Below are positions 10,070-33,771 of a stretch of DNA of 34,024 nt, piece by piece; position 1 is the first letter of the stretch; each line of letters opens with the position of its first letter. Position numbers and translations under genes: made by a program. The notes under the pieces are model-generated. The model was not told the DNA's origin and searched no databases. It was given only the letters and a program-made list of their open reading frames with translations. The DNA is taken from contig DATBBR010000143.1 in NCBI GenBank assembly GCA_036270875.1, forward strand, positions 1 to 34,024. Reading direction: 5' to 3'. This stretch comes from Acidimicrobiales bacterium. Lineage in GTDB: Bacteria > Actinomycetota > Acidimicrobiia > Acidimicrobiales > AC-9.

Positions 10070-11197
10070 TCACTCGACGAGCTTTCGCAGCGCCACGTCC
10101 AGCCGGGCTGCCAGGACCTCGTAGTCGAAGCCCGACTCGGCACGCGACCGGGCGGCAAGGCCCAGACGGCGACGCCGTCCCTCGTCGTCGAGGAGCGGCC
10201 CCAGCGAGGCGGTCACCTCGTCGACGTCGCCGGGCCGCCGGACGACGAGGCCGGTGGCGCCGTCGACCACGGCCTCGGCCGCCCCTCCGCTGTCCCCCGC
10301 CACCTGCGGCACCGCGCAGGCCGCCGCCTCCAGGAACACGATCCCGAACCCCTCCTGCTCGAGGCCGGCCCAGCGATCCCGGCAGAGCATGGCGAACACG
10401 TCGGCGCAGCCGTAGAGCTGCGGCAGCACGTCGTCCGCAACCCGACCCATGAGTCGAACGGGGGCGGCGGTCTTGGCGATGCGCCGCTCGAGCCGGCTCC
10501 GGTCCCGACCGGTTCCGGCGATGGCGACGGTGAGATCCGGTCGGGCCGCGGAGAGGCGGGACGCGGCGTCGATGAGCACGTCCATGCCCTTTCGGGGAAC
10601 CAGGCGGCTCACGCTGACGACCAGTCGGCCCTCGGCCGGTAGGCCCAGCGCCGCCCGGGCCCTGGTCCGCTCGCGGTCGTCGAGCGGCCGGAAGCGTTCG
10701 CCGTCGACCCCGGGCGGTATGGCGGTCACCGGGGGCATGCCGCTGCCGGCAGCCCGCCGGGCCTGCGCCTCCGGATAGGTGCCGGCTGCGATGACGGCAG
10801 CGGCGTCCCGCAGCACCCGGGCCAGCAGGGGGCGGGCGCCGGGCAGCCGGCCGGGGACCGTCACCTCGGCGCCGTGCAGGACCAGCGCGTACGGCAGGCC
10901 CAGGGCGGGGCCGACCAGACCCACCGGGAGCGCGGGATCGAGCACGACGAGGCGGGCGCCAGTCCGCTCACAGCGACGGCGGATGTGGCGCGCCAGGCCT
11001 GGCGAGGGCAGCAGCATCCGGGTCGCCAGGCGCTCGATGTCGAAGGGCTGGGCGGCGTCGAATACGGCGCTCTCGGGGTGATCGATCGTGAGGACCGAGA
11101 ACGAGTCGGGCGGGAGCCGCCGCCACAGCTCCCACAAGTAGGACTGGATGCCGCCGACCTTGGGTGGGAAGTCGTTGGTGACGAGGAGGTGCCTCAT
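10070..11197 (-). CDS. GT4 glycosyltransferase, PimB-like mannosyltransferase
   Basis: The 375-aa GT-B fold enzyme begins MRHLLVTNDFPPKVGGIQSYLWEL, the acceptor-side glycine loop typical of actinobacterial PimB/MgtA-type enzymes. The donor domain has VSRLVPRKGMDVLI (R198, K203) and the EX7E motif in EGFGIVFLE (E282, E290), binding GDP-mannose in relatives. PimB adds the second mannose to phosphatidylinositol monomannoside; the precise acceptor here cannot be fixed from sequence. The ATG at 11197 is the natural start. The reading frame stays open far upstream, but that part is the shadow of queG. It lies 19 bp after queG on the same strand, with no clear Shine-Dalgarno. Confidence 0.88.
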   Translation of the reverse strand: MRHLLVTNDFPPKVGGIQSYLWELWRRLPPDSFSVLTIDHPESAVFDAAQPFDIERLATRMLLPSPGLARHIRRRCERTGARLVVLDPALPVGLVGPALGLPYALVLHGAEVTVPGRLPGARPLLARVLRDAAAVIAAGTYPEAQARRAAGSGMPPVTAIPPGVDGERFRPLDDRERTRARAALGLPAEGRLVVSVSRLVPRKGMDVLIDAASRLSAARPDLTVAIAGTGRDRSRLERRIAKTAAPVRLMGRVADDVLPQLYGCADVFAMLCRDRWAGLEQEGFGIVFLEAAACAVPQVAGDSGGAAEAVVDGATGLVVRRPGDVDEVTASLGPLLDDEGRRRRLGLAARSRAESGFDYEVLAARLDVALRKLVE

Positions 11198-11216
11198 CTG
11201 GCGAGCCGGGCTCCGG

Positions 11217-12377
11217 TCACCCGGCGAGCCCGTCGTGCCCAGCGAGCCCCGCGGTCCTGAGCTCGGCCACCACCTCGGTATCGGTCTCCGACCCGGCGAG
11301 GCCGGACGCCAGGTCGTGGCGACCCAGGCGGGCGGCGGCCCAGACCGCGTGGGCCCGCACCAGTGGGTCCCGGTGGGCCAGCGCGTCACGCAGCGCTCGG
11401 GCCACCCGCCGGTCGCGCCCGTCGCCCACGTTGCCCAGCGCCACCAGGGCGTTGCGTCGAAGGTAACGGGGCTGGCGCCGCGGGATGTACCAGCGCCCGA
11501 GGTGGCCGAGGAGCTCGGCGTCGCTGGATCCGAGGAGGCAGACCAGCTCGACCCACGGCTCGTCGTCCTCCCCCGCCGGAGGCGGAGGATGGCGCCGATC
11601 CTCGCTGCGGTTGGGCGGGCATACCTCCTGGCAGTCGTCGCATCCGTAGATGCGGCCCCCCAGTGCCGATCGGAGCTCGATCGGGAACACCCCCGGCGCC
11701 TGGAGCAGCCAGGCCAGGCACCGTCTGGCGTCGAGCACACCCGGTTCCACCAGGGCACCCGTGGGACAGGCGGCCAGACATCGGGCGCAGGTCCCGCAGG
11801 TACCGCCACCGCCCGCCGTCCTCGGCGGAAGGGGCGCGTCGGTGACGACCGACCCCAGCACGAACCACGACCCCCTCCCGGGCAGCAGGAGGACCGTGTT
11901 CTTGCCGTACCACCCCAGGCCCGCCCGGTGGGCCGCGGCCCGGTCGACCATGGCGTTGTCGTCGACCACCACCCGCGCCTGCCATCCGGCGGCCTCCAGC
12001 CGACCGGCCACCACACCAAGAGCTGCACGCAGCGGCTCGTAGTGGTCGCTCCAGGAGTAGCGGGCCACCCGGCCGAGGGCTCCGGTCGCTGGAGTGTCCT
12101 CCGGGGGCGCCCGCCGATACGACCGGGCACCCACCACCAGGGCGCGGGCGCCGGGAACGGAGCCAGCGGGATCGGTGGCGCGACCCGGGTCCCCGTAGGT
12201 GAAATGCATCCCGCCGTGCAGCCCGGCCGCCTTACGGTCCTCGAGGTGCCGGCGGGTGGACTCGAACGGCTCAGCCCCGGTGATGCCGACCGCGTCCAGC
12301 CCCGACGCCCGTGCCAGGGACGAAAGCTCGTCGGCCAGCGGGCGCAGGTCGTCGAGAGCCAGGGCGCGGCGGACCAC
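11217..12377 (-). CDS. queG: Epoxyqueuosine reductase
   Basis: The 386-aa protein matches QueG, the cobalamin- and iron-sulfur-dependent enzyme that reduces epoxyqueuosine to queuosine in tRNA. The catalytic-Asp region VDDNAMVDRAAAHRAGLGWYGKN (139-160) is present; the family usually has D-x-x-P there, so Ala replaces Pro. Two [4Fe-4S] ligand sets are complete: CGTCARCLAACPTGA (C194, C197, C200, C204) and C220 with YGCDDCQEVCP (C246, C249, C253). A HEAT-like C-terminal region follows (RRNALVALGNVGDGRDRRVARAL). The start is GTG. No other queuosine gene is in the window. It is divergent from a small cysteine-protein gene, with 47 bp between starts. Confidence 0.93.
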   Translation of the reverse strand: MVRRALALDDLRPLADELSSLARASGLDAVGITGAEPFESTRRHLEDRKAAGLHGGMHFTYGDPGRATDPAGSVPGARALVVGARSYRRAPPEDTPATGALGRVARYSWSDHYEPLRAALGVVAGRLEAAGWQARVVVDDNAMVDRAAAHRAGLGWYGKNTVLLLPGRGSWFVLGSVVTDAPLPPRTAGGGGTCGTCARCLAACPTGALVEPGVLDARRCLAWLLQAPGVFPIELRSALGGRIYGCDDCQEVCPPNRSEDRRHPPPPAGEDDEPWVELVCLLGSSDAELLGHLGRWYIPRRQPRYLRRNALVALGNVGDGRDRRVARALRDALAHRDPLVRAHAVWAAARLGRHDLASGLAGSETDTEVVAELRTAGLAGHDGLAG

Positions 12378-12424
12378 GACCCCATGCTTGCACCGGAGGG
12401 CGGTTGATACACCCGGGTGCCACC

Positions 12425-12631
12425 ATGCGGGTCATGAGCGATTCGATGACGATCAGCTGCCACGACTGCTCGATGCTCGACAGTGCTGCGTGCGAGGACT
12501 GCGTGGTCAGCTTCATCCTGGACCGGACGCCCGGCGACGCCGTGCTCATCGACGCCGACGAGGCCCGCGCCGTACGCATGTTGGGCGACGTGGGGCTGGT
12601 GCCCCACCTTCGTCACACCCGGGCGGGCTGA
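12425..12631 (+). CDS. Small CxxC protein, conserved actinobacterial type
   Basis: A 68-aa product from ATG 12425 (65 aa from ATG 12434). The core is ISCHDCSMLDSAACEDCVVSFIL, with two CxxC pairs that could bind a metal, then DAVLIDADEARAVRMLGDVGLVPHLRH. I recall similar short proteins in related actinobacteria but know no function. A metal-binding or redox switch protein is possible. The cysteine spacing and the charged, non-repetitive composition argue against a chance ORF. No Shine-Dalgarno is clear at either ATG. It is divergent from queG and ends 7 bp from the stop of the convergent NYN-domain gene. Confidence 0.7.
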   Translation: MRVMSDSMTISCHDCSMLDSAACEDCVVSFILDRTPGDAVLIDADEARAVRMLGDVGLVPHLRHTRAG

Positions 12632-12638
12632 GGCGCGC

Positions 12639-14063
12639 TCAGAGCTCCCGGCGCAGGACGGCCATGAGCTGGCTGACCGAGATGACGTTGGCGCCCCGCC
12701 GCTCGGCGTCCTCGCGCACGGCCCGGTCGTTCGAAGCGACCACCACCGGGCTCTGGACGGGCAGGTCGTCGACCAAGCCGACGACGATCTCGTCGGCCTC
12801 GACGTCAGGTGGGGAGAACCGCGTCCGCACCAGGCGCCGGGGCCCGGCCGACGTCACCGGCTGCGCGGGCTCGACGCCGTCGAAGACGACGTGCACGCCG
12901 GACTTCGTCCTCGTCGCCAACTCCTCCAGTGCGTCGACGAGCCGGCGCCGCTGCTCGCCGATCGACAACGAGGGGCGCCAGGCGAGAGAGGCGTTGTACC
13001 CGTCGACGACGAGCACGGTCCCGCTCAGCCGCACCAGGTGCTCGGCGGCTTCGGGGGAATCGTCCCGCATGCCAGGCGGCAGTGGCGCCGGACGTCGTGA
13101 AGGGCGACGCTCCTTCCGAGGACTCGACGATCGGGGGCGGGGTCGCGGAGGCGCCGACACGGGTGGGGAAGCAGCGGCCTGCTCGACGTCGTCGGCTACC
13201 TCCTCGGGGTCGTCAGGGACGGAGGGACTGAGCGAGTTCGCGCTCGAGCGCAGCGTGGCGGCGAGGGAGGATGCAGCCTCGGCAGCTTCCGCGATCTCGC
13301 GGGCAAGGGTCTCGAGGTCGGGTCCTTTGCGCACCACGGTTCGCAGGCGGGCGAGCTCGGCCCTCGCTTCCTCGAGCGCCCGGCTGGCCTTGGCCTGGTC
13401 GCCGGTCAGAGCGTCGGCCCGCCGACGGGCGGTGGCGGCATCCTCTTCGGCGGCGCGGCGCGATCGACGCTCGGCCCGAAGCTCCTCGGCCGTCCGCACG
13501 GCGCGCTCTCTCTCGCGGGCGAGCGCCTCCTCGATCCGCCGAGCCGATGCCTCGGCAGCTCGCACCCGGCGGCGTGCCTCCCGCTCGTCCTGCTCCCCGT
13601 GGCGGTCGTCGATCTCGGCCCGCGCCGCCACCAGCAGCCCGTCGAGCTCGGTCGCCCACCCGTCCGGCCGGGCCACGAAGAGCCACGCCGGTCGGGGCAG
13701 CTCGATCTCCTCGGCCGCCGCGGCCACCCGCTCCCGGAAGTCGGCGTCCTCGTCGACCACACGCCGTACGACGTCCAGGGCCCGAGCCGGCAGTCGGGCG
13801 AATCCCAGCAGGGGCTTCATGGGCCGGGGTGCCGCGATGCGTGGCTCCAGCTGCTGGCCCGCCCGAGCCACGGCCCAGGCCAGCTCGAGGGCCGGTCGCA
13901 ACAGGGCGCCCCCATCCGGCCCGGGAGGGCGGCCCGAGGACGACGCCGGCCCGGGAGGGCGGCCCGATGACAGCGCGTCGGCGGACGGTTCCTGCCGCCG
14001 CGGCGTCAGACCTCGCTCTCCCGCAGCACCTGCACGGCACGGTCGGTGTCGCACCATCGGCAC
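12639..14063 (-). CDS. NYN-domain (PIN-like) RNase-type protein with coiled coil
   Basis: The 474-aa protein has three parts: a helical N-terminal region (about 55-150) opening ALLRPALELAWAVARAGQQLEP; a long Ala/Arg/Glu-rich coiled coil (about 160-290); and, after a Pro/Arg/Ser-rich linker, a C-terminal NYN domain (about 348-474). The NYN core is VLVVDGYNASLAW, with the putative metal-binding Asp at 354, plus VHVVFDGVEP and VVVASNDRAVREDAERRGANVIS. This resembles YacP/Rae1-type ribonucleases, so RNA cleavage is likely. The GTG at 14063 is supported by a strong GGAGGAGG 4 nt upstream, although it overlaps the preceding zinc-ribbon gene by 58 bp. A 30-bp tandem duplication near the 5' end encodes two GRPPGP copies. 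Confidence 0.8.
   Translation of the reverse strand: MPMVRHRPCRAGAAGERGLTPRRQEPSADALSSGRPPGPASSSGRPPGPDGGALLRPALELAWAVARAGQQLEPRIAAPRPMKPLLGFARLPARALDVVRRVVDEDADFRERVAAAAEEIELPRPAWLFVARPDGWATELDGLLVAARAEIDDRHGEQDEREARRRVRAAEASARRIEEALARERERAVRTAEELRAERRSRRAAEEDAATARRRADALTGDQAKASRALEEARAELARLRTVVRKGPDLETLAREIAEAAEAASSLAATLRSSANSLSPSVPDDPEEVADDVEQAAASPPVSAPPRPRPRSSSPRKERRPSRRPAPLPPGMRDDSPEAAEHLVRLSGTVLVVDGYNASLAWRPSLSIGEQRRRLVDALEELATRTKSGVHVVFDGVEPAQPVTSAGPRRLVRTRFSPPDVEADEIVVGLVDDLPVQSPVVVASNDRAVREDAERRGANVISVSQLMAVLRREL
13916..13967 (-). repeat. Two-copy 30-bp tandem repeat inside the NYN gene
   Basis: The 22-bp sequences at 13916-13937 and 13946-13967 are identical and lie 30 bp (10 codons) apart. 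They encode a repeated SSGRPPGP-type segment in the disordered N-terminus, which suggests replication slippage and possible length variation between strains. Confidence 0.85.
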
Positions 14064-14221
14064 GACACCTCCTCCACCACGTGGGACAAGAGCTGCTCGT
14101 CCTCGACCGTGAGGTCACCACCGACGCTGTAGTGGTGAAACGCCCGAGTCCGGCGTGTCGACACCACGTCGAACCGGGTCACGTTGCCACAGGCGTCACA
14201 CCGATAGCGGGGAGCGTCCAC
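14006..14221 (-). CDS. Small zinc-ribbon protein
   Basis: A 71-aa product with two cysteine pairs: CDACGNVTRFDVV near the N-terminus and CRWCDTDRAVQVL near the C-terminus. They would together bind one zinc ion, a rubredoxin-like knuckle arrangement. Similar short proteins occur in actinobacteria, but I know of no assigned function. The gene overlaps the NYN-domain gene by 58 bp and the two are surely cotranscribed, so a joint role in RNA handling is possible. Start GTG 14221 has no Shine-Dalgarno, but a TACTCT hexamer ends 7 nt upstream, consistent with a leaderless message from a promoter shared with the divergent DUF885 gene. Confidence 0.78.
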   Translation of the reverse strand: MDAPRYRCDACGNVTRFDVVSTRRTRAFHHYSVGGDLTVEDEQLLSHVVEEVSCRWCDTDRAVQVLRESEV

Positions 14222-14228
14222 GGCGCTC

Positions 14229-14238
14229 AGAGTACCGT
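14229..14238. promoter_or_regulatory. Putative bidirectional promoter with shared -10 TA step
   Basis: The ten bases AGAGTACCGT contain TACTCT on the minus strand (14234-14229) and TACCGT on the plus strand (14233-14238), sharing the TA at 14233-14234. Each hexamer ends exactly 7 nt before a start codon: GTG 14221 on the minus strand and ATG 14246 on the plus strand. The starts are separated by only 24 bp, so both messages would be leaderless. Confidence 0.5.
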
Positions 14239-14245
14239 CGGCCTG

Positions 14246-15778
14246 ATGAACCCCCGGCTGCGGGTGCTGTGCGAGCTGTTGATGCCCGAGGTGCGTGAGT
14301 ACGCCGGGCTGCACGAGTACGACGGGCAGGTGCAGGACCTCTCCCCGAGCGGAGTGACCGCCGCCCTGGCCCGGCTGGGGCAGGGGCCACCAGACCCGAA
14401 CGCCCACGACGAGGCCCACCTGCGAACCACCGAGGAAGGGCTGCGCACCGCGCTCGGCATGGTGGAGGAGCACCGCCGCAACCCGCTCGTGCACATCGCC
14501 AACCTCGACCTGGCTACCTACGACCGCGAGTACGCCCCTCTCGCCGAGCGCCAGGACGTCAAGCGGCGTCACCTGGCGTCGTGGCCCGCCGCCGTGGACG
14601 GCGCCATCGAGTCGCTCGACCTCGTCCCGGCGCCGGTCGCCCGGGCCCTGCTGCCGGCGACGAGAGGGCTCGTCGCGGGATTGGAGCAGAGTCCCGAAGG
14701 GCCCGGGTCGAGCGCGGGCGATGCGGACCTCGAGGCGGCCAGGAAGGCCCACGGACGACTCGTCCACCACGTCGAGGGGATCGGCGACGGCGGTGATCCC
14801 GACGTTGCCATCGGCGGCCCCAATCTCGCCCGACTCATGGGCGACCCCGAGGGGATGCCCGTCGATCTCGGGCGCCTGGCTCTTCGGGCGGACGCCGAGG
14901 CCGACCGAGTGCGCCGCCTGCTCGACGACGCCTGCGACCGCCTTCGCCCCGGCGCCCGGCCAGGGGAGCTGCTGGCCGAGCTGGGCGCCGACCACGCCGG
15001 ACCTGAGGGCATCGAAGCCGAGGCCCGGGCGCTCATCGCCGAGGCGACCGCCTTCGTGGTCGACCGCGACCTCCTCGCCGATCCCGGCGGCGAGTGCCGG
15101 GTGGGTCCGGCGCCGCCCTCGCGGCGATGGGCCATGGCCATGATGTCGTGGACGGCGCCGTTCGAGGCCGACGCGCCCGCCTGGTACTACATCAATCCGC
15201 CCGATCCCGTCTGGCCCGCCGAGGAGCAGGCCGAGTGGCTGGCGGTGTTCAGCCGGACCACCCTGCCCGCCATCACCGTGCACGAGGTCACGCCCGGCCA
15301 CTACGCCCACGGGCGAATGCTGCGCCGCCTCGACGGCGACGTCCGCCGCATCCTGTTCTCGTCAGCGTTCGTCGAGGGCTGGGCGCATTACGCCGAGGAG
15401 CTCGTCCTCGACGAGGGCTTCCGCGCCGACGATCCGCGCTTTGCCATCGGGGTCCACGTCGAGGCGCTCGTACGCATCACCCGGCTCGCCGTCGCCATCG
15501 GCATCCACACCGGTGCCATGAGCCTGGAGGATGCTGTCCACCGATTCGAAGAGGACGCCTTCCTTCGGGGACCGGCGGCGCGGAGCGAGGCGGAGCGGGC
15601 GGGCTTCGATCCCACCTACGGCCGCTACACGTGGGGCAAGCTCGAGATCAGGGCCTTCCAGGACGAGGCCAGGACCCGGTGGGGCCGGCGGTATCGCCAC
15701 CGGCGCTTCCACGAAGCGCTGCTCGGTCTCGGTGCCCCGCCACTCGGACTCATCGGCGACGCCCTCGGACCCGGCTGA
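14246..15778 (+). CDS. DUF885 family protein (putative metallopeptidase)
   Basis: The 510-aa protein belongs to the DUF885 family. The zinc-site motif HEVTPGHY is at 346-353, followed by EGWAHYAEELVLDEG at 377-391, the third-ligand glutamate region of gluzincin-like peptidases. The C-terminal YGRYTWGKLEIRAFQDEAR block is also family-typical. Family members are predicted zinc peptidases, and substrates are mostly unknown. No signal peptide is visible, so a cytoplasmic enzyme is likely. ATG 14246 begins the family-like sequence (MNPRLRVLCELLMPEVREY). The frame stays open upstream, but that part shadows the NYN gene. The TACCGT box 7 nt before the ATG suggests a leaderless message. It converges on the ABC permease gene with an 18-bp gap. 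Confidence 0.88.
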   Translation: MNPRLRVLCELLMPEVREYAGLHEYDGQVQDLSPSGVTAALARLGQGPPDPNAHDEAHLRTTEEGLRTALGMVEEHRRNPLVHIANLDLATYDREYAPLAERQDVKRRHLASWPAAVDGAIESLDLVPAPVARALLPATRGLVAGLEQSPEGPGSSAGDADLEAARKAHGRLVHHVEGIGDGGDPDVAIGGPNLARLMGDPEGMPVDLGRLALRADAEADRVRRLLDDACDRLRPGARPGELLAELGADHAGPEGIEAEARALIAEATAFVVDRDLLADPGGECRVGPAPPSRRWAMAMMSWTAPFEADAPAWYYINPPDPVWPAEEQAEWLAVFSRTTLPAITVHEVTPGHYAHGRMLRRLDGDVRRILFSSAFVEGWAHYAEELVLDEGFRADDPRFAIGVHVEALVRITRLAVAIGIHTGAMSLEDAVHRFEEDAFLRGPAARSEAERAGFDPTYGRYTWGKLEIRAFQDEARTRWGRRYRHRRFHEALLGLGAPPLGLIGDALGPG

Positions 15779-24623: not shown

Positions 24624-26071
24624 GCATCCTGGTCGTCGACGTCGGCACCAGCGGGGTGCGGGCGGCGGTCGTCCGGCCCGACGGCGCCGTCGAGCACGTG
24701 CGGCACCGCCCGGTCCTGCCGACATCGCCCGCCCCTGGCTTCGTGGAGTTCGACGCCCGGGAGATGGCCGACGCCGCCCTTGCCGTCGCTCAGGAGACCC
24801 TGGATGCCCTGGGCCCGGGTGGCGGCGTGGACGGCGTAGGGATCGCCAACCAGCGAGCCTCCACCATCGTGTGGGACCGCGCCACCGGCAAACCGGTCGG
24901 TCCCGGGATCGGGTGGCAGGACCTGCGTACGGTCGGGATGTGTCTGGCCCTCCAGAGCCAGGGCCTCCGGCTGGCGCCCAACGTCTCGGCGACCAAGGCG
25001 GCGATGCTCCTCGACCTCGCCGATCCCGACCGGACGGCCGATCTGTGCGTGGGGACGGTCGACTCATGGATTGCGTGGACGCTGTCGGCTGGTCGGCTGC
25101 ACGTGACCGACGCGACCAATGCGGGGGTCACCGGGCTGCTGCACGCGGACGCCTCGGGCTGGGCTCCCCAGGTGCTCGACGCCCTGCGCATCCCGGAGGC
25201 GGCGCTGCCGACCATCGTCGACTCGTCGGGCATCGTGGGCGAGGCGGCGGCGCTGCCGGGGTCCCCGCCGATCGCGGGCATAGCCGGAGACCAGCAGGCG
25301 TCGCTGGTGGGCCAGGGCGCCACCCGCCGGGGTCTGGCGAAAATCACCTTCGGCACCGGCGGCATGCTCGACCTGTGCGTAGGGCCCGAGCGACCGACGT
25401 TCGAGGCTCGGGGTCCGGACGGCACCTTCCCCATCGTCGCCTGGCGCCGCCAGGGCAGGCTCACCTGGGGCCTCGAGGCCGTCATCTTGTCGGCCGGCAC
25501 CGCCGTAGAGTGGCTGCGCGACGACCTGGGGCTCATCGCCTCCGCCGAGGAGTCCGACCGCGTCGCCGCGGCGTGCGCCGATACCGGCGACGTGTGGTTC
25601 GTCCCTGCGCTGTTGGGCCTGGGCACGCCGGTCTGGGACTTCGGCGCCCGCGGCACGCTCGTCGGCGTCACGCGGGGGACGGGGCGGGCCGAGGTCGTCC
25701 GGGCCGTACTGGAGGGCGTCGCCCACCGGGGCGCCGACCTGGTCGAGGCGGCCGAGGCCGACGGCGACACCACCATCGCCTCGCTCAGAGTCGACGGCGG
25801 CATGAGCGCGAACGGCACCTTCGTGCAGGCCCTCGCCGATGCCGCGGCCCGACCGGTCGAGGTTTCTCCGGTGCTCGAGGCGACGACGTTGGGCGCCGCC
25901 TACCTGGCCGGGCTGGCCCTGGGGACGTGGGCCGACGAGGACGAGCTCGCCTCCCGCTGGTCGCCGGCGCGCGTCGTCGAGCCGGTACGACGTGTCGACC
26001 GCGACCGGTGGCGGGCGGCCCGCCAACGATCCCTGGCCACGGTTCCCGAGCTGTCCGGTCTCAACTTCTGA
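24620..26071 (+). CDS. FGGY-family kinase, glycerol-kinase-like with altered sugar site
   Basis: The 483-aa kinase has the family frame: phosphate loop DVGTSGVR (7-14), WQD at 99-101, catalytic Asp224 in GIAGDQQASLVGQG and the ADP-site ITFGTGGML. Compared with true glycerol kinases, the NQRE pair is NQRA (E to A at 80), and the DPYFSATK tyrosine is replaced (APNVSATK, 119-126). Two side chains that grip glycerol are therefore missing, and TDATNAGVTGLL replaces TDxTNASRTML. The substrate is likely another polyol or a ketose; dihydroxyacetone or a related triose would suit the operon, but this is inference. It starts with GTG overlapping the previous stop (GTGA) and ends 25 bp from the stop of the convergent rad50/sbcC gene. 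Confidence 0.85.
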   Translation: MSILVVDVGTSGVRAAVVRPDGAVEHVRHRPVLPTSPAPGFVEFDAREMADAALAVAQETLDALGPGGGVDGVGIANQRASTIVWDRATGKPVGPGIGWQDLRTVGMCLALQSQGLRLAPNVSATKAAMLLDLADPDRTADLCVGTVDSWIAWTLSAGRLHVTDATNAGVTGLLHADASGWAPQVLDALRIPEAALPTIVDSSGIVGEAAALPGSPPIAGIAGDQQASLVGQGATRRGLAKITFGTGGMLDLCVGPERPTFEARGPDGTFPIVAWRRQGRLTWGLEAVILSAGTAVEWLRDDLGLIASAEESDRVAAACADTGDVWFVPALLGLGTPVWDFGARGTLVGVTRGTGRAEVVRAVLEGVAHRGADLVEAAEADGDTTIASLRVDGGMSANGTFVQALADAAARPVEVSPVLEATTLGAAYLAGLALGTWADEDELASRWSPARVVEPVRRVDRDRWRAARQRSLATVPELSGLNF

Positions 26072-26096: not shown

Positions 26097-28472
26097 TCAG
26101 ATCAGGTGCGCCGTGGCGCGCCGGCCGGGCAGCTTGACGACCTCGACGGCGGAGGGAAGCTGCTCCTTGATGTCGCTGGCGTGGGTGACGACCACGACCT
26201 GGCGGAACCTCCCCCGCAGGCGTTCCAGGGCCAGCAGCATGCGCTCCTTGCGATCCTCGTCGAGCGGCCCGAAGACCTCGTCGAGTACCAGCAGGCCCAC
26301 GGCGCCGCCGGACTGGAACCGCACCTGCTCGCTGATCGCCACGCGAAGCGACAGGTTCGCCAAGTCGGTCTCGGAGCCGGAGAAGCGGTCCATGCCGTGG
26401 ACCACGCCCTGGTCGCAGATCTGGATCTCGTAGGTCTCGGGATCCACCTTCAGCAGGTCGTACTCGTGGTCGGTGAGCTCGGCGAACAGCTCGGCGGCCT
26501 GGGCCGACAGGCGCGGGCCGGCCGTGGCCACCACCGAGTTGCGGAAGCTGCTCAGCAGCTCCGCCAGCCGCCCGAGGTGACGAACCTCCTCGCCCAAGTC
26601 GTCGACCACAGCATGCTGCTCGTTGGCCTCCGCCAGCCGCTTGCCCTCGGACTCGGCGTGCGCCCGAGCGCGCTCAGCCACCAGGCTGGCCCGGCGAGAA
26701 TCGGCCGCCGCCGAAGACGACTTTGCCAACGCCTCTTCACGGGCCTGATGGGCCGCCGCCAGCTCGTCGGCCGAATGCGCGAGGTCGGCGACCTGCTGGC
26801 GCAACCCCGCCAGGCGCTGGTCGGTCTCCGCCACCACCGCTCGTGCCGCCGCCAGCTCCGTGGTCGCCACCTGGCGCCGCTCCAGGCGGCCGTTCAGGCG
26901 GGCGCACTCGGCGACCGCGGCCCGTCCCGCTCTCACCGCACTCCTGAGGTCGCCGACGAGCCGGGACAGGAGCGTGCCGTCGACCACCGGTTCGGTGGAG
27001 GTGGCGTCGAGCGGGCGGGCGACGGCCGGAAGCAGGCTGGTCACTGGCGTCCGCCATGCTCCTCCCGACTCCGCGACGACCTTCTCCAGCGAGGCGATGG
27101 CCGCCTCGACGTCCGAGACGGCCGCTTCACGTCGCTCCAGGACGCGCTCCCACCGCTCCCAGTGCTCACGGGCGGACCGCAACTGCTGGCGGAGCTCGTT
27201 GGCGCGCCGGTCGGCCTCCCGAGCCCGAGCCCCGGCTTCGGCCTGCCGGCCTTCCAGGTCGACCACCGCGTTCTCGGCCTCGGCCAGCTCAGCGGCCCGG
27301 TGGCGCTGGACCCGCTCGAACGAGCCGCCCAGGGGCTGGCCGCAGGTGGGGCAGTGCTCCTCTCCTGACAGCCGCGACGTGCGGGCCACCGCCTGCTGGG
27401 CCCGTTCCCGCTCGGCCCTCGCCCCGGCTAGGCGCCCGTCCAGCTCCGCCGCCTCGGATCGAGATCGGTCGGCTCCCGCGCGGGCATCCTCAGTGGCCTG
27501 CTCGTTCGGAACGTCGGGACGGACCGGGAGCCGGACGGCTGCCAGCGCCTCGTGGGCCCGCACGACCGACTCGACCAGGCTGAGCACCTCCTCGGACGGG
27601 CCCAATCCCGCGGCCACGGGCTGCAGCTCTGCCAGCTTCCCAGCGGCGCCCTCGAGCTCGACCAGCTCGTGACCCAGCTCGTCCGCCCGGCCCTGGGCAG
27701 CATCGTGCTCGGCCCGCACCGACCGCCCGCGCTCGACGAGGAGATCGTGTTGCTGCCGAACGGCCTCTCGGCGCTCACACTCGACCCGTGCCGCGTCGAG
27801 GTCCGCGGCCGCTTCCTCGGCAGCCGTCTCGGCAGCCCGGCCGTCTCGATCGGCGGCCTCGGCGGCCGCCTCCGCTTCGGCGAGCCCGACGCGGAGCCGA
27901 TCGAGATCGGGGACCATCTGGCGCAAGCGCTGCAGCTGGTCGTCGGCCAGCCGGGCATCCCGGCGAGCCCGGTCACGGGCGATCTCGAGGGGGGTGATGC
28001 CCAGGAGCTGGAGCACGAGCCGGCGCCGGTCCGCCGGGCTCTGCTCACTGAAGGCCGACAGCTGCTTCTGCTCGGCGAACACCGAGGCACGAAAGGCGGC
28101 GTCGTCCATCCCGAGCACGGAATGGACGTAGCGGGTCGTGTCCCGAGCGCCCTCCGCCACCTGCAGGCGATCGCAGTAGGCCTCGGCCTTGACGGCGTGG
28201 TTGGCGCCGGAGATCGTTCTTCGCACCAGATACAGGTGGTCCTCGTGCTCGAGCTCCACCTCGACGACGCATTCGGCCCCGACGCCCGAGGTCCGGACCT
28301 CGTCCTTGGTCGTGCGGCTCCGTCCGTAGAGGGCGAAGGGGATCGATTCGACGAGAGCCGACTTCCCCGCCCCATTGGGTCCGTAGACACCGACCAGCCC
28401 GCCGGGCAGCTCGAGCTCGACGGGGTCCTCGAACGTCCGGTAGTTGCGCAGGTACAGGCGGGTGATCCTCAC
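26097..28472 (-). CDS. sbcC: Rad50/SbcC-type SMC ATPase
   Basis: The 791-aa protein is an SMC-like ATPase: Walker A GPNGAGKS at 31-38, a long coiled coil broken by a zinc hook CPTCGQPLGG (C374, C377), the ABC signature FSGSETDLANLSLRVAISEQ at 697-716, and Walker B LLVLDE at 727-732. With Mre11/SbcD it tethers and trims DNA ends. At under 800 residues it is shorter than E. coli SbcC and closer to archaeal Rad50. GTG 28472 starts right at the family sequence (VRITRLYLRNYRTFED) and overlaps the sbcD stop by 4 bp. It is last in the nurA-herA-sbcD-sbcC operon. Confidence 0.93.
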   Translation of the reverse strand: MRITRLYLRNYRTFEDPVELELPGGLVGVYGPNGAGKSALVESIPFALYGRSRTTKDEVRTSGVGAECVVEVELEHEDHLYLVRRTISGANHAVKAEAYCDRLQVAEGARDTTRYVHSVLGMDDAAFRASVFAEQKQLSAFSEQSPADRRRLVLQLLGITPLEIARDRARRDARLADDQLQRLRQMVPDLDRLRVGLAEAEAAAEAADRDGRAAETAAEEAAADLDAARVECERREAVRQQHDLLVERGRSVRAEHDAAQGRADELGHELVELEGAAGKLAELQPVAAGLGPSEEVLSLVESVVRAHEALAAVRLPVRPDVPNEQATEDARAGADRSRSEAAELDGRLAGARAERERAQQAVARTSRLSGEEHCPTCGQPLGGSFERVQRHRAAELAEAENAVVDLEGRQAEAGARAREADRRANELRQQLRSAREHWERWERVLERREAAVSDVEAAIASLEKVVAESGGAWRTPVTSLLPAVARPLDATSTEPVVDGTLLSRLVGDLRSAVRAGRAAVAECARLNGRLERRQVATTELAAARAVVAETDQRLAGLRQQVADLAHSADELAAAHQAREEALAKSSSAAADSRRASLVAERARAHAESEGKRLAEANEQHAVVDDLGEEVRHLGRLAELLSSFRNSVVATAGPRLSAQAAELFAELTDHEYDLLKVDPETYEIQICDQGVVHGMDRFSGSETDLANLSLRVAISEQVRFQSGGAVGLLVLDEVFGPLDEDRKERMLLALERLRGRFRQVVVVTHASDIKEQLPSAVEVVKLPGRRATAHLI

Positions 28473-29587
28473 GCCCCCGCCTCCTCCACGGCGCGGGCCA
28501 GGTACTCGGCTCCAGTCCGGTCGATGCGCTCCCGATCGAATCCGGTCAGGTCCTGGCCGGCGACGTAGCGAGCCCACCGCGCCGGCATCGACTCCAGGTC
28601 GACCGCCTCGACCTCGGCGCTCACCCCCGCGAAACGGGGCTCGAGCTTGCACCACAGGGCGCCACGGTGGGCCTCCCGGACGGCGTCGGTATCCAGCAGC
28701 CGGTACGCCTCGGGGTCGACGCCGTCGATGAACAACCGGGCCACCGCCCCATCGGGCACCGTCGACACCCGGGCCAGCACGGCCTCCTCCACCTCGCGGG
28801 GCCCGAGACCGAGCGCCTCCACCGTCTCCAGGGTGACGAGCGGTCGCTGGCTCTCGACGGGCACATGGCGGCACTCGCCCGAGTCGGTGTCGAGCAGGAC
28901 GATCCCCTTGGGCCGCTGCGGGTCGTCGGCGAAGGAGAACGTCTCGGTCGATCCCGCGTACCACATGCCCGGTCGCACCGTCGTGTGGATGTGGAAGTGG
29001 CCGAGCAGCACCAGGTCGGCCCGGATGCGGCCCGCGTCCACCTCGATCTCGTTGATGTCGGCATACCGGGGCTCGACCTGGGGAACGCGGGGATGGGTGA
29101 GCAGCAGGTTGGTCCGGTCCAGGCTGCGCTCGGCGTGGGCGCGGTCGAGTGCCGCGAGGGTCGCCTCCACGGTGAGCATCTGGGGTACCGCGTGGACCAC
29201 CAGGCCGGGAAGCTCGAACCGCTCGTAGGTAAGGCGGTGGGCGAAGTGCATGCCATCGAAGGCGTCGGCCAGGGCCGAGTACGGACTTCCCGTTCCGGGC
29301 AGCCGGGGAGTGTCGTGGTTCCCGGTGATGACCACGGCCGCGATGCCGTGCTCGCGGATCCTGGCCAATCCCCGCTGGGCCACTCGGAACGAGCGGTACG
29401 TCGGGCGTGGATGGTCGAACACGTCACCCAGCCATACGACCAGGTCCGGCTCCTCGGCCAGCGCGGCGTCGATCGCGACCTCGAACGCGAGCTCGAAGTC
29501 TCGCTCGCGCTGGTTGACTCCCTCGGGCGTCGTGACCGGGTAGTAGGAGCGCCCCAAGTGGGCGTCGCCGAGGGCCGCCACGCGCAT
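28469..29587 (-). CDS. sbcD: Mre11/SbcD-type DNA exonuclease
   Basis: The 372-aa calcineurin-like phosphoesterase has all metal-site motifs: GDAHLG (D8, H10), GDVFDH (D55), GNHD (N90, H91, D92), LLLTHP (H165) and GHFHIH (H197, H199). The C-terminal half is the capping and Rad50-binding region. Mre11/SbcD nucleases act with Rad50/SbcC as a two-metal nuclease on double-strand ends and hairpins. ATG 29587 lies 2 nt after the herA stop, and the 3' end overlaps sbcC by 4 bp. Placement between HerA and Rad50 matches the archaeal gene order rather than the usual bacterial sbcDC pair. Confidence 0.93.
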   Translation of the reverse strand: MRVAALGDAHLGRSYYPVTTPEGVNQRERDFELAFEVAIDAALAEEPDLVVWLGDVFDHPRPTYRSFRVAQRGLARIREHGIAAVVITGNHDTPRLPGTGSPYSALADAFDGMHFAHRLTYERFELPGLVVHAVPQMLTVEATLAALDRAHAERSLDRTNLLLTHPRVPQVEPRYADINEIEVDAGRIRADLVLLGHFHIHTTVRPGMWYAGSTETFSFADDPQRPKGIVLLDTDSGECRHVPVESQRPLVTLETVEALGLGPREVEEAVLARVSTVPDGAVARLFIDGVDPEAYRLLDTDAVREAHRGALWCKLEPRFAGVSAEVEAVDLESMPARWARYVAGQDLTGFDRERIDRTGAEYLARAVEEAGA

Positions 29588-29589
29588 GA

Positions 29590-31164
29590 TCAGTCCACCA
29601 ACGCGGCGACGTTGGCCGCGGCCGACGGCCGGGGAGCAGGCGCCGGGTCACAGGCGCGGACCGCGTCGTCGTAGAGGTGAACCATGGCGGGCACGGCGAA
29701 CGGCGCCTCCAGGTTCACCAACAGGCACTCCCCCGGCATGAGGGTCTGGATCTCGGGACCCAGGCCGGAGAGATCCTGCTTGGAGGAGGCCCGGAGGATA
29801 CTGCGGTCCTTCTCGTCGGCGAGACCGAGGACGAAGAAGGTGTTGAACTGGCTCAGCAGCTCGTCGTCGAGCAGCTTGGGCTGCTGGGTGATGGCGCACA
29901 GGCCGACCTTGAACTTGCGTCCCTCACGGGCCAGGCGGGGGAACACGTTGGACTCGCGGTCCTTGGTGGACCTGAGGACCCGCTGCGCCTCCTCCAGCAC
30001 GATGGCGACCACCGGCAGTCGCTCGTGGCCCTCGGGGTCGTCGAGATACGCGTTGGACCACTCGTCCATCACCCGGCGGGCGAGGAAGGAGGCGACCAGC
30101 ACCTCCTCGGTCGAGCCGAGACCGCTCACGTCGACGAGCACCACCCGGCCGCTGCGCAGGTCCCGCAGGACGGCCGCGCCGACCGAGACGGCAGGGTCGG
30201 TCGCCACACACGGCAGGTCGACGATGCGGCGAGCCCGGCGGTGCACGACCTGGAGCGTGTTGAGCGCCACCCTGCCGTTCAGCTCGACGTCGCGGAAGCC
30301 GGGCAGGTCGTCTAGCTGGGCGAACTCCAGCAACCACGAGAGACCGTCGGCCCGGTACACGCGCTCCAGCTCGAACAGCGCCTCCTCCTGGCTGCGGGAC
30401 CAGTCGTAAGCAGTGCGGAGGTCGTCGACGCTCAGCTCGGCGAGGCTGACCCGCAGGCTCGTCGTGCCCGGCAGGGACCGGGCTGCATAGGTGCGCAGCG
30501 CCTCGGACGCCCAGGGGTGGCGACCCAGTGCGGACCGATATTCTCCGTGAGGATCGACGAGCAGGAGGCCGTAGCGGCCCTGGCGCCGCATCACGGCGCC
30601 GGCCAACACCTGCATGAGGTTCGACTTTCCCATGCCGGTGGTGGCGAAGATGCCGACGTGGCTGGCCAGGCTCGCACCAGAGATCCCCACCTCGACGTCG
30701 ACCTCGGTCTCGCCGCTGCGCAGCTGGCCGATCGCCAGGTCCCCCATGCGGCTGCGCAGGAAGGCGAAGTCCGCCGGCTCGGGGGCGACGACCCGGCTGA
30801 ACTGGGTGGGCAGGCTCTTGGGCTTGCGGAAGGACCGCCCGTCCGGAGTCACGTAGCCCAGGCACCGGCACTCGGCGACGCGATAGGTGCGTCGCCCGCG
30901 GTCGTAGAGGGGATGCGAGTCGGCTGACCCGATCACGTCGTCGGCGAGGAGCGTACCGGCCACCCGCTCGGCCCAACCCGGCTCGCGGTGCTCCGTCCCG
31001 TACGTCACGTCGACGACCCGGAACAGGTAGCGCCGTCCCGTCGTGTCGTCGATCCCGACCAGCAGCTCGCCGAGAAACAAGTCCTCGTCCGGCGCGGCGC
31101 GGAAGATGCCCTCGAGCACGTTCCGGCCGAACAGGCGGCCCCTCGGACCGGGCATCTCGCTCAC
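29590..31164 (-). CDS. herA: HerA-type DNA translocase ATPase
   Basis: The 524-aa protein is a HerA/FtsK-superfamily ATPase: an N-terminal HAS-barrel-like domain (about 1-130), Walker A GIFATTGMGKSN at 171-182 (K180), LLVDPHGEY, Walker B VVAIVLEEAQRV (E391/E392), sensor ITQQPKLLDDELLSQFNTFF at 425-444, and the C-terminal LGPEIQTLMPGECLLV. Hexameric HerA drives DNA through the NurA nuclease during end resection. GTG 31164 overlaps the nurA stop by 4 bp (GTGA). The longer reading to 31545 shadows nurA. The 2-nt gap to sbcD ties it to the Mre11-Rad50 genes. Phage-defence HerA systems also exist, but the SbcD/SbcC partners favour repair. Confidence 0.92.
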   Translation of the reverse strand: MSEMPGPRGRLFGRNVLEGIFRAAPDEDLFLGELLVGIDDTTGRRYLFRVVDVTYGTEHREPGWAERVAGTLLADDVIGSADSHPLYDRGRRTYRVAECRCLGYVTPDGRSFRKPKSLPTQFSRVVAPEPADFAFLRSRMGDLAIGQLRSGETEVDVEVGISGASLASHVGIFATTGMGKSNLMQVLAGAVMRRQGRYGLLLVDPHGEYRSALGRHPWASEALRTYAARSLPGTTSLRVSLAELSVDDLRTAYDWSRSQEEALFELERVYRADGLSWLLEFAQLDDLPGFRDVELNGRVALNTLQVVHRRARRIVDLPCVATDPAVSVGAAVLRDLRSGRVVLVDVSGLGSTEEVLVASFLARRVMDEWSNAYLDDPEGHERLPVVAIVLEEAQRVLRSTKDRESNVFPRLAREGRKFKVGLCAITQQPKLLDDELLSQFNTFFVLGLADEKDRSILRASSKQDLSGLGPEIQTLMPGECLLVNLEAPFAVPAMVHLYDDAVRACDPAPAPRPSAAANVAALVD

Positions 31165-32222
31165 GCCCGCTCCATGAGCCGGTGGCGGTCGGCGAAAGCC
31201 CGTTCCCGCACCTCCAGGCCGACGCCGGCGTCGTGAAGGTGCTCGTCGAGGGCCAGCCAGGCCTCCTGCCGCACCCAATGGGGACAGGCAGCGAGGCCAT
31301 CGGCCACGGCCAGCGGGTAGGGATAGCCGGGAAAGGCGGCGTCGTCGGACACAGCGGCAAGGGCGGCGAGTGCAGATTCGGGCGACGTCCCTGCGGGAAG
31401 ATCGATGCGAAACGAGAAGCGTGCCGCGGGGTCGAGCCGGGCCGCCACCACCTGGACGGCGAGGGGGGACGTGGGCTGCTCTGGCGCCACATCCGGTTGG
31501 CTGCTGTCCTCGGCCGGGCGGCTTCTGGCCACCGGCGCCCACCACCGGGCGCCAGGGCCGAGCGCCTCATCGGCCTCCGCCTCGAGCTGTCCCAGCAGGG
31601 GCGCACCGCCGCGCGACAGCGACGAGTGCTTGGTCACGCCGACAACCAGGACCCCATGCTGGCGCGCCCGCTCCAGCAGGGCACCGACGTGATCGGACGG
31701 GATGCGCCAGTCGGGCCACAGGTCGCCGTCGACCAATACCAGGGCGCCGTCGTCGGCCTCGTCGACGCATCGCTCGACCGCATCCCACTCCCACCGGTCG
31801 CGCACCAGGTTGGCGTCCACAGCCGTGTGGGGCGGAAGGGGCAGACCGAGGTGGGCGAGCGCAGCCCGGCTCTCCGCACCTCCGAGCAGATAGGCGCGGA
31901 GCGGCTCCGCGTCCTGCTGCTCGCAGACGCCCGCCCGGAACCGCACCCGGGACGTCCTCGTCACCACGACCTGGAGGCATCGGGCGTCGGCCACGACGGC
32001 CTGTCCGCCGTCAACGGCCCACACGTCCGAGGGGACAGCACCCTTCGGCAACGGCCGCGGTCGGATCACCGGCTCGATATCGAGGCTCGGCTCACCGGGA
32101 TCGGCCGGGCCCCCGCCGCCCGTCGTGAGCAGGGTCGCCAACCGGGCCGCGGCTGCCTCGATCGTGCCGGCCTCGATGGCGCCTGTCTCCACGGGCTCGA
32201 GGGTCTCAAGAGGGTGTGACAC
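31161..32222 (-). CDS. nurA: NurA-domain 5'-3' nuclease
   Basis: The 353-aa protein has the RNase-H-like NurA layout: AVDGGQAVV (D71) on the first strand, VLVDGDLW (D165), GVTKHSS (K198) and the C-terminal GYPYPLAVADGLA (299-311). Between them lie helical segments and a variable Pro-rich stretch (about 230-252). NurA forms a dimer at the base of the HerA hexamer and degrades the 5' strand. The start is GTG 32222 with no Shine-Dalgarno; TAAGCT ends 7 nt upstream, so a leaderless message is likely. It is first in a four-gene operon. An inverted repeat TTACAG-CT-CTGTAA (32233-32246) overlaps the promoter. Confidence 0.88.
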   Translation of the reverse strand: MSHPLETLEPVETGAIEAGTIEAAAARLATLLTTGGGGPADPGEPSLDIEPVIRPRPLPKGAVPSDVWAVDGGQAVVADARCLQVVVTRTSRVRFRAGVCEQQDAEPLRAYLLGGAESRAALAHLGLPLPPHTAVDANLVRDRWEWDAVERCVDEADDGALVLVDGDLWPDWRIPSDHVGALLERARQHGVLVVGVTKHSSLSRGGAPLLGQLEAEADEALGPGARWWAPVARSRPAEDSSQPDVAPEQPTSPLAVQVVAARLDPAARFSFRIDLPAGTSPESALAALAAVSDDAAFPGYPYPLAVADGLAACPHWVRQEAWLALDEHLHDAGVGLEVRERAFADRHRLMERA

Positions 32223-32320: not shown

Positions 32321-32710
<390 letters not shown>

Positions 32711-32712
32711 TC

Positions 32713-32903: not shown

Positions 32904-33422
32904 CTAGGCGCCGCCGCCGGGCCCGGCCGCGAGATGGCGGTACAGGAGCGGGAGGACGCGCAGGTCCTTCGGCCGGCCCGCTGCTTCCTTCGACCGGATC
33001 ACGTCGTTGAGATCGGCGATCACAACCTCGACGTCGTCGACCCGGACACGGTGGGCGTGAGCGGCAAGGTCGGGGTAGCCCTGGCTGAAGCCCTCGGGCC
33101 GAAAAGAGATGTCGAACTCGCCGTACGGACAGATGAGGTTCCAGACCTGCGAAGCGGCAAGTGACGTCGCGTCGTGGTCGAACTGGAGGCCTTCGGGGAC
33201 CGCCTCCGTGCGGATCCGGGCGCCAAGGTCCTTCAGGGCGGCCGAGATGCGACCGAGGTTCTCCGGGCTGGCCTCCGGCGTCAGGTCGATGTCCCGAGTA
33301 GCGGGGATCGGGACGTGCTGGGCGATCGCCGCGAAGGCGCCGATGACCACGTAGCGGACCCCGTGCTCGTTGAGAACGGAGATGATCGCGGTGGCGTTCA
33401 GCTCCGGGGGATCGGCGTCCAC
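32904..33422 (-). CDS. Nucleotidyltransferase-fold protein, AbiEii/MenT-like toxin candidate
   Basis: The product is 172 aa from GTG 33422. It has a minimal nucleotidyltransferase core: VRYVVIGAFAAIAQHVPIPATRDIDL with the D-x-D pair (D44, D46), a third acidic residue in GEFDIS (D104) and the late VIRSKEAAGRPKD (141-153), typical of AbiEii/MenT-like and related families. MenT-type relatives add nucleotides to tRNA and block translation. It lies 16 nt downstream of an XRE-type gene on the same strand, a toxin-antitoxin-like order. The start is uncertain: the frame is open to 33530 within the XRE gene, and no Shine-Dalgarno is clear. Position inside the repeat-bounded interval suggests horizontal acquisition. 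Confidence 0.78.
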   Translation of the reverse strand: MDADPPELNATAIISVLNEHGVRYVVIGAFAAIAQHVPIPATRDIDLTPEASPENLGRISAALKDLGARIRTEAVPEGLQFDHDATSLAASQVWNLICPYGEFDISFRPEGFSQGYPDLAAHAHRVRVDDVEVVIADLNDVIRSKEAAGRPKDLRVLPLLYRHLAAGPGGGA

Positions 33423-33438
33423 TGTGCTGTGCGTCGGA

Positions 33439-33771
33439 TCAACGCACCGGCGTGGCCTGTCGCCACGCCTGCATCTCTCGATCGCGTCGGCTCCGCTCCG
33501 TGGGCGAACGCCCCGCTTCCAGAGCTTCAAGCACCTCGTCGTGGGGGTCGAATGGGACGAGCTGCATGCGCAGATCGAAGCCGGCCGCCCTGAGGAGCCG
33601 GAGCAGCGTGGCGAGTGTGGGCTGACGGCGGTCCCTCTCGTAGGCCGAGATCATGGTAGGCGGCACCCCCGCCCGCTCGGCTAGCTCCCGTTGGCTGATG
33701 CCGGCTCGGAGACGAGCGAGCTGGAGCAGCGCGGCAGCCGTGGAGGGAACCTCCTCATACGACTGTGTCAT
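33439..33771 (-). CDS. XRE-family HTH protein, antitoxin candidate
   Basis: The 110-aa protein carries a Cro/C1-type helix-turn-helix at about 17-60 (LARLRAGISQRELAERAGVPPTMISAYERDRRQPTLATLLRLLRAAGF). A tail (LRMQLVPFDPHDEVLEALEAGRSPTERSRRDREM) could wrap the partner. It precedes the nucleotidyltransferase gene, matching toxin-antitoxin pairs in which the XRE protein neutralises and represses. TACAAT (33783-33778, minus strand) ends 6 nt before the ATG, so the message is probably leaderless. An 18-bp imperfect palindrome (33770-33787) covers the -10 and start codon and is a good candidate for autorepression. Confidence 0.85.
   Translation of the reverse strand: MTQSYEEVPSTAAALLQLARLRAGISQRELAERAGVPPTMISAYERDRRQPTLATLLRLLRAAGFDLRMQLVPFDPHDEVLEALEAGRSPTERSRRDREMQAWRQATPVR

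Follow-up and report, generated by a model that had tools for sequence, protein, structure and literature searches.

An archaeal-type nurA-herA-mre11-rad50 operon, old within Actinomycetota, as the probable core end-processing machine of an Acidimicrobiia lineage

The in vivo role of the HerA-NurA pair is disputed: end resection, segregation and antiviral nuclease activity are all under discussion. What does this pair do in a lineage that carries the full nurA-herA-mre11-rad50 set and in which RecBCD, AddAB, AdnAB, RecJ, RecQ and canonical SbcCD are undetected, so that a role in resection predicts a clear phenotype? The question is raised by a window of 34,024 nucleotides (the whole stretch of DNA that was analyzed; contig DATBBR010000143.1 of the assembly GCA_036270875.1) from an Acidimicrobiales bacterium of the class Acidimicrobiia. 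Positions 32222-26097 of its minus strand are occupied by four adjacent, co-directional genes with intact motifs, namely, nurA, herA, mre11 (sbcD), and rad50 (sbcC). According to the present analysis, this archaeal-type operon, which is old within Actinomycetota, is probably the core machine for the processing of double-strand-break ends in this lineage, and it may be the main broken-end trimmer of this genome.

Identification of the operon genes

According to the sequence-only reading, the full archaeal-type set of four genes is present, neighbours overlapping by 4 bp or being spaced by 2 nt; the gene order, junctions and protein families were all borne out. The nurA gene (31161..32222, minus strand, as for the other three genes) has a GTG start and encodes a 353-aa putative RNase H-fold nuclease, the expected partner of HerA. 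It overlaps by 4 bp with herA (29590..31164), whose 524-aa product belongs to a hexameric DNA-pump ATPase family (DUF87). After a gap of 2 nt follows mre11/sbcD (28469..29587), encoding a 372-aa nuclease with Mre11 metal motifs, which in turn overlaps by 4 bp with rad50/sbcC (26097..28472), encoding a 791-aa ABC ATPase with a coiled coil.

HerA, Mre11 and Rad50 passed the Pfam cut-offs, and NurA was recognized by its fold. HerA matched DUF87 (E = 1e-19) and contains the Walker A motif GMGKSN (30619-30636) and the Walker B motif IVLEEAQR (29980-30003); its best NCBIfam match was the archaeal HerA model. Mre11/SbcD matched Metallophos (E = 1.6e-10), and all phosphodiesterase motifs are present (GDAHLG, LGDVFD, GNHD, THP, and GHFHIH). 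Rad50/SbcC matched AAA_23 (E = 1.2e-15) and SbcC_Walker_B; its Walker A motif (28359-28382), CxxC zinc hook CPTC (27342-27353), signature (26361-26384) and Walker B motif (26277-26294) were located, all on the minus strand. Both Mre11 and Rad50 gave top scores against archaeal models and structures. The window SbcD reached 50 bits with the TIGR00619 model, below the cut-off of 77.65 for canonical SbcD.

As for NurA, the window protein scored 18 bits against PF09376 (cut-off 21 bits), and a search of the whole genome with the Pfam NurA model did not pick it up. This failure raised the possibility of a mis-assigned gene, which was ruled out by a fold search. The AlphaFold model (mean pLDDT 85.3) had three NurA structures, 2ygk, 7f6d, and 3tai, as its best Foldseek matches, followed by endonuclease V and Argonaute. 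In addition, NurA was the only Pfam family matched by 27 of the 29 members of the NurA orthologue alignment (best E = 5e-6). Judged by the modelled fold and the alignment, the gene is nurA despite divergence beyond the Pfam cut-off.

Three NurA motifs were mapped on the minus strand. D71 in VDGGQ (32001-32015) and D165 in VDGDL (31719-31733) are invariant across the orthologue alignment. The third motif, GYPYPLAVAD (31299-31328), contains Asp308, which follows the C-terminal YPY(P)L motif in all 29 Acidimicrobiia NurA sequences; other Actinomycetota and two Bacillota NurA sequences have His at this position. Two haloarchaeal NurA proteins also seem to carry Asp there, in a part of the alignment that is less certain.

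Distribution and phylogeny of the operon

Of the 148 genomes of the order that were searched, 30 from 15 families (own genome included) carried a NurA orthologue. Wherever the sequence was long enough, the gene order nurA-herA-sbcD-sbcC was seen in the Acidimicrobiia loci and in other Actinomycetota families; it was also found on two Bacillota plasmids, from Pontibacillus and Priestia. The Pontibacillus genes are annotated as NurA, ATP-binding protein, metallophosphoesterase, and SMC family ATPase. This recurrence beyond a single family and a single phylum excludes chance adjacency.

Full mre11-rad50-nurA-herA clusters were present on two haloarchaeal plasmids (L175:7983-15541 and L176:1-7437); archaeal plasmids, like those of Bacillota, can thus harbour the four-gene set. 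For the window operon, a plasmid or phage origin was considered and rejected: a tblastn search of plasmids with the window NurA gave no match, although this protein is too divergent to reach even the Pontibacillus NurA in this way, and phage matches to HerA were weak and partial only. In two loci of one Actinomycetota family (L154 and L155, family f76), herA, sbcD and sbcC form a distantly related cluster, accompanied by a NurA-like frame of very high divergence (15-18 bits); the system may thus have a third branch in bacteria.

Another candidate explanation was an ordinary SbcCD pair standing by chance beside nurA-herA. Phylogenetic trees and approximately unbiased (AU) tests ruled it out, and they speak against the refuting case that the sequence-only reading had named, ordinary sbcD/sbcC genes next to nurA/herA of unrelated origin. 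The operon-type SbcD proteins formed a single clade (support 100/100 in the reduced set) apart from the canonical SbcD of Acidimicrobiia and E. coli, and a topology holding operon-type and canonical SbcD of Acidimicrobiia together was rejected (p-AU 1.7e-5). The AU test also rejected the grouping of operon-type SbcC and Acidimicrobiia canonical SbcC apart from E. coli, archaeal and other outside sequences (p-AU 5e-6). In the SbcC tree, the operon sequences did not form one clade; those of Bacillota and some deep Actinomycetota split from the Acidimicrobiia-like ones. By sequence comparison, the operon SbcD and SbcC are not ordinary actinobacterial SbcCD. Pairwise tree distances of the four genes correlated with rho of 0.90-0.96 (29 operons with all four genes) and, within Acidimicrobiia, with rho of 0.48-0.84. 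The four genes evolve as one unit.

The archaeal scores of Mre11 and Rad50 and the archaeal HerA model as best NCBIfam match would fit an event in which this lineage recently acquired the operon as a whole from archaea; a joint transfer had been put forward for testing by the sequence-only reading. Such a recent import is highly improbable: branching inside the SbcD operon clade tracks taxonomy, the operon is spread over 15 families of the order, its place next to the RNase P RNA gene is found again in relatives, and its gene order is shared with other Actinomycetota and Bacillota but not with the two haloarchaeal clusters. In the trees, archaeal sequences sit on long branches. The operon is old within Actinomycetota and represents a form of a known system that is shared among bacteria.

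Alternative end-processing enzymes and replacement pattern

The host genome is a 2.99-Mb draft of 155 contigs with a completeness of 97%; those of its relatives that have names bear mainly the labels Acidimicrobiia or Actinobacteria. A check of it for recBCD, addAB and adnAB, as the sequence-only reading had advised, revealed none that could be recognized: profile searches gave no match for AddB or AdnB. In addition, RecJ was not found, the RecQ family gave sub-cut-off matches only, and the only SbcD was that of the operon. AddB and AdnB were also absent from the other two genomes of the genus, where one match of 7e-4 in a 283-aa frame was counted as spurious.

The same enzymes were sought among the 148 genomes of the order. 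AddAB and AdnAB were named by domain make-up and by the best profile matches of one reference locus each (L113 and L118), and AddB matches weaker than 1e-5 were taken as absence. AddB was present in 5 of 30 genomes with the operon vs. 85 of 118 others (Fisher test, 7e-8) or, counted by family, in 3 of 15 vs. 39 of 46 (9e-6). Canonical SbcD was found in none of the 30 operon genomes and in 43 of the 118 others, and AdnB showed the opposite distribution (6/30 vs. 1/118). Thus, the association of the operon is negative with AddAB and canonical SbcCD and positive with AdnAB; a replacement of AdnAB specifically was not supported, as AdnAB co-occurs with the operon. Neither AddB nor AdnB was detected in 19 of the 30 operon genomes. 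The alternation of AddAB and NurA-HerA within one order offers natural replicates.

A stronger version of the proposed role would be that, in some of the Acidimicrobiia families, the operon replaced AddAB, AdnAB, RecJ-RecQ, and canonical SbcCD and became the sole machine for resection of double-strand breaks, with an archaeal-style front end, a bacterial RecA and a NurA in which the His of the C-terminal motif was changed to Asp; we put its chance somewhat below even.

Possible function

The mechanism proposed for the operon is modelled on archaeal and Deinococcus homologues (PMC2288612, PMC9960219, PMC12977600). Rad50-Mre11 would bind and tether the DNA end, nick it and clear blocked termini. 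The HerA hexamer would then pump duplex DNA into the NurA dimer, which would degrade the duplex and leave single strands for RecA. In this genome, the operon would stand in for AddAB/AdnAB/RecBCD, RecJ-RecQ, and canonical SbcCD. By analogy with the homologues, we infer complex formation, the direction of resection, and essentiality. Rad50, Mre11 and HerA of Sulfolobus acidocaldarius co-precipitate (PMC2288612).

Several points weigh against the operon being the core end-processing machine. The absence calls rest on a draft genome, and PcrA, UvrD-like helicases and a stand-alone RecB-like nuclease could cooperate in this cell. The UvrD-family matches comprised PcrA, two UvrD-like helicases, one of which has a RecQ-type C-terminal (HRDC-like) match, and a HelR/HelD-type protein; those to PDDEXK_1 were a RecB-like nuclease of 286 aa and a protein of 535 aa. 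AddB and AdnB were also not detected in 32 of the 118 relatives lacking the operon, which limits the conclusion, since cells may cope without all three systems or divergent versions may have been missed. The presence of AdnB in 6 and of AddB in 5 of the 30 operon genomes indicates that the operon is not the sole system everywhere, and the associations were corrected for phylogeny only by the family-level count. The HerA-NurA of T. kodakarensis cuts both strands, and its role in resection and overhang formation has been doubted (PMC12977600); this doubt keeps a destructive or defence function alive. In several Acidimicrobiia, herA and sbcD are separated by other genes, some of them in the opposite orientation. 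Finally, two genomes of one family (G068 and G135, loci L177 and L178) hold operon-type mre11-rad50, and nurA and herA were undetected in them, which suggests that the HerA-NurA half was lost. Together with the recurrent four-gene order, these two genomes indicate that the two pairs mostly travel together and are yet separable.

The intervening genes and the two relatives with mre11-rad50 only are in line with a rival explanation, according to which two partly independent pairs share a promoter: HerA-NurA would serve, e.g., segregation pumping or plasmid control, Mre11-Rad50 would be a general break and hairpin nuclease, and the clustering would reflect co-regulation. The nurA-herA genes of D. 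radiodurans and Thermus without linked mre11-rad50 (PMC8708640, PMC5448004) point the same way, as do the tree distances within Acidimicrobiia, where nurA correlates less with the other genes (rho 0.48-0.66) than these three do among themselves (0.81-0.84). This explanation seems rather unlikely in view of the persistence of the four-gene order across families and two phyla, the overall distance correlation, and the direct Rad50-Mre11-HerA contact reported in Sulfolobus (PMC2288612).

The genes between herA and sbcD were also considered as possible components of the system; being partly on the opposite strand, they were judged incidental. An opposite-strand MarR-like regulator, recognized from the translations, recurs at this position in four loci (L059, L060, L062, and L063).

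Genomic surroundings and a possible role in defence

The operon starts approximately 100 bp from the divergent RNase P RNA gene (rnpB, 32324-32711, plus strand), which lies in the flank, outside the system. At its 3' end, a convergent FGGY kinase gene ends at 26071, 26 bp away; rnpB and glycerol-metabolism-type genes are the closest neighbours of the operon. The rnpB gene is also upstream of nurA in L031, L033, L037, L039, and L040, and downstream of sbcC in L044; overall, it was near the operon in 6 of the 10 loci searched.

Pairs of HerA with a nuclease, such as Sir2-HerA and DUF4297-HerA, are known anti-phage systems. By comparison with them, the HerA of the window could feed the DNA of invading phages or plasmids to NurA, which would destroy it. 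HerA and Rad50 matched the HerA, LmuB and mads models of PADLOC, though with only ~40-90 bits, and the distant NurA-like TdpB surfaced in a PDB profile search with a non-significant E of 0.47. The authors of the T. kodakarensis work proposed an antiviral role (PMC12977600). Such a function is unlikely for the window operon. NurA and Mre11 matched no PADLOC model, the partners of HerA are NurA, Mre11 and Rad50 rather than a defence-specific protein, and a mobile or defence island was rejected for want of supporting neighbours. The genes around the operon are core genes, and rnpB stays beside nurA in several relatives. In addition, the four genes are inherited jointly and vertically across families, and the operon holds the only SbcD of the genome, canonical SbcD being absent wherever the operon occurs. 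The action against foreign DNA suggested by the sequence-only reading gained no positive evidence at this locus, and the role in end processing remains the favoured one.

Beside the operon, two overlapping genes on the minus strand (32904-33530 and 33439-33771) encode an XRE-type HTH protein and a nucleotidyltransferase-like protein (DUF6036-like, below the cut-off); the pair resembles a toxin-antitoxin-like module. Judging from the translations, nurA and herA of a relative are apparently separated by a similar pair in the opposite orientation (L032:3337-4355, minus strand), which splits the operon. Elsewhere in the window, the minus strand contains three raw frames with start codons not fixed. 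One of 848 aa (10073-12616) has a glycosyltransferase group 1 domain as its C-terminal part; the stretch 12642-15310 holds one of 474 aa that ends in a YacP-like NYN domain and one of 434 aa (14009-15310) with no Pfam match.

Comparison with known systems

The gene set itself is already known, and a review mentions NurA and HerA in Actinobacteria (PMC8708640). A literature search, with Iyer et al. 2004 and Cheng et al. 2015 outside its scope, found no description of the alternation of the operon with AddAB and canonical SbcCD across Acidimicrobiia, of the lack of the usual alternatives in this genome, or of the conserved Acidimicrobiia NurA variant.

The herA-nurA-mre11-rad50 cluster of thermophilic archaea (PMC2288612) comprises the same four families in co-directional, tightly spaced genes. 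The window differs from it in its bacterial setting, its very divergent NurA and its order, nurA-herA-mre11-rad50, the two haloarchaeal clusters having mre11-rad50-nurA-herA. Closer in order is the nurA-hepA-sbcD-sbcC cluster of Oceanithermus profundus, where SbcD and SbcC lie downstream of a HerA homologue (Blesa et al. 2017, PMC5448004); it is bacterial, as is the window operon, and belongs to another phylum, and it was compared by the published remark on gene context. Deinococcus radiodurans has a bacterial HerA-NurA in a host without RecBCD/AddAB (PMC9960219), and the structure of its NurA (7f6d) is the second-best fold match of the window NurA. Unlike in the window, nurA-herA of D. radiodurans are not clustered with the mre11/rad50 homologues (PMC8708640), and this bacterium has RecJ and RecQ, neither of which was detected in the window genome.

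The canonical SbcCD of E. coli and ~30% of the searched relatives shares the nuclease-ATPase architecture and motifs with the window pair, whereas it forms a separate, well-supported branch, in accordance with the low TIGR00619 score of the window SbcD (50 bits vs. 77.65). As for the AddAB and AdnAB helicase-nucleases, they would fill the same role in end resection with protein families unrelated to those of the operon.

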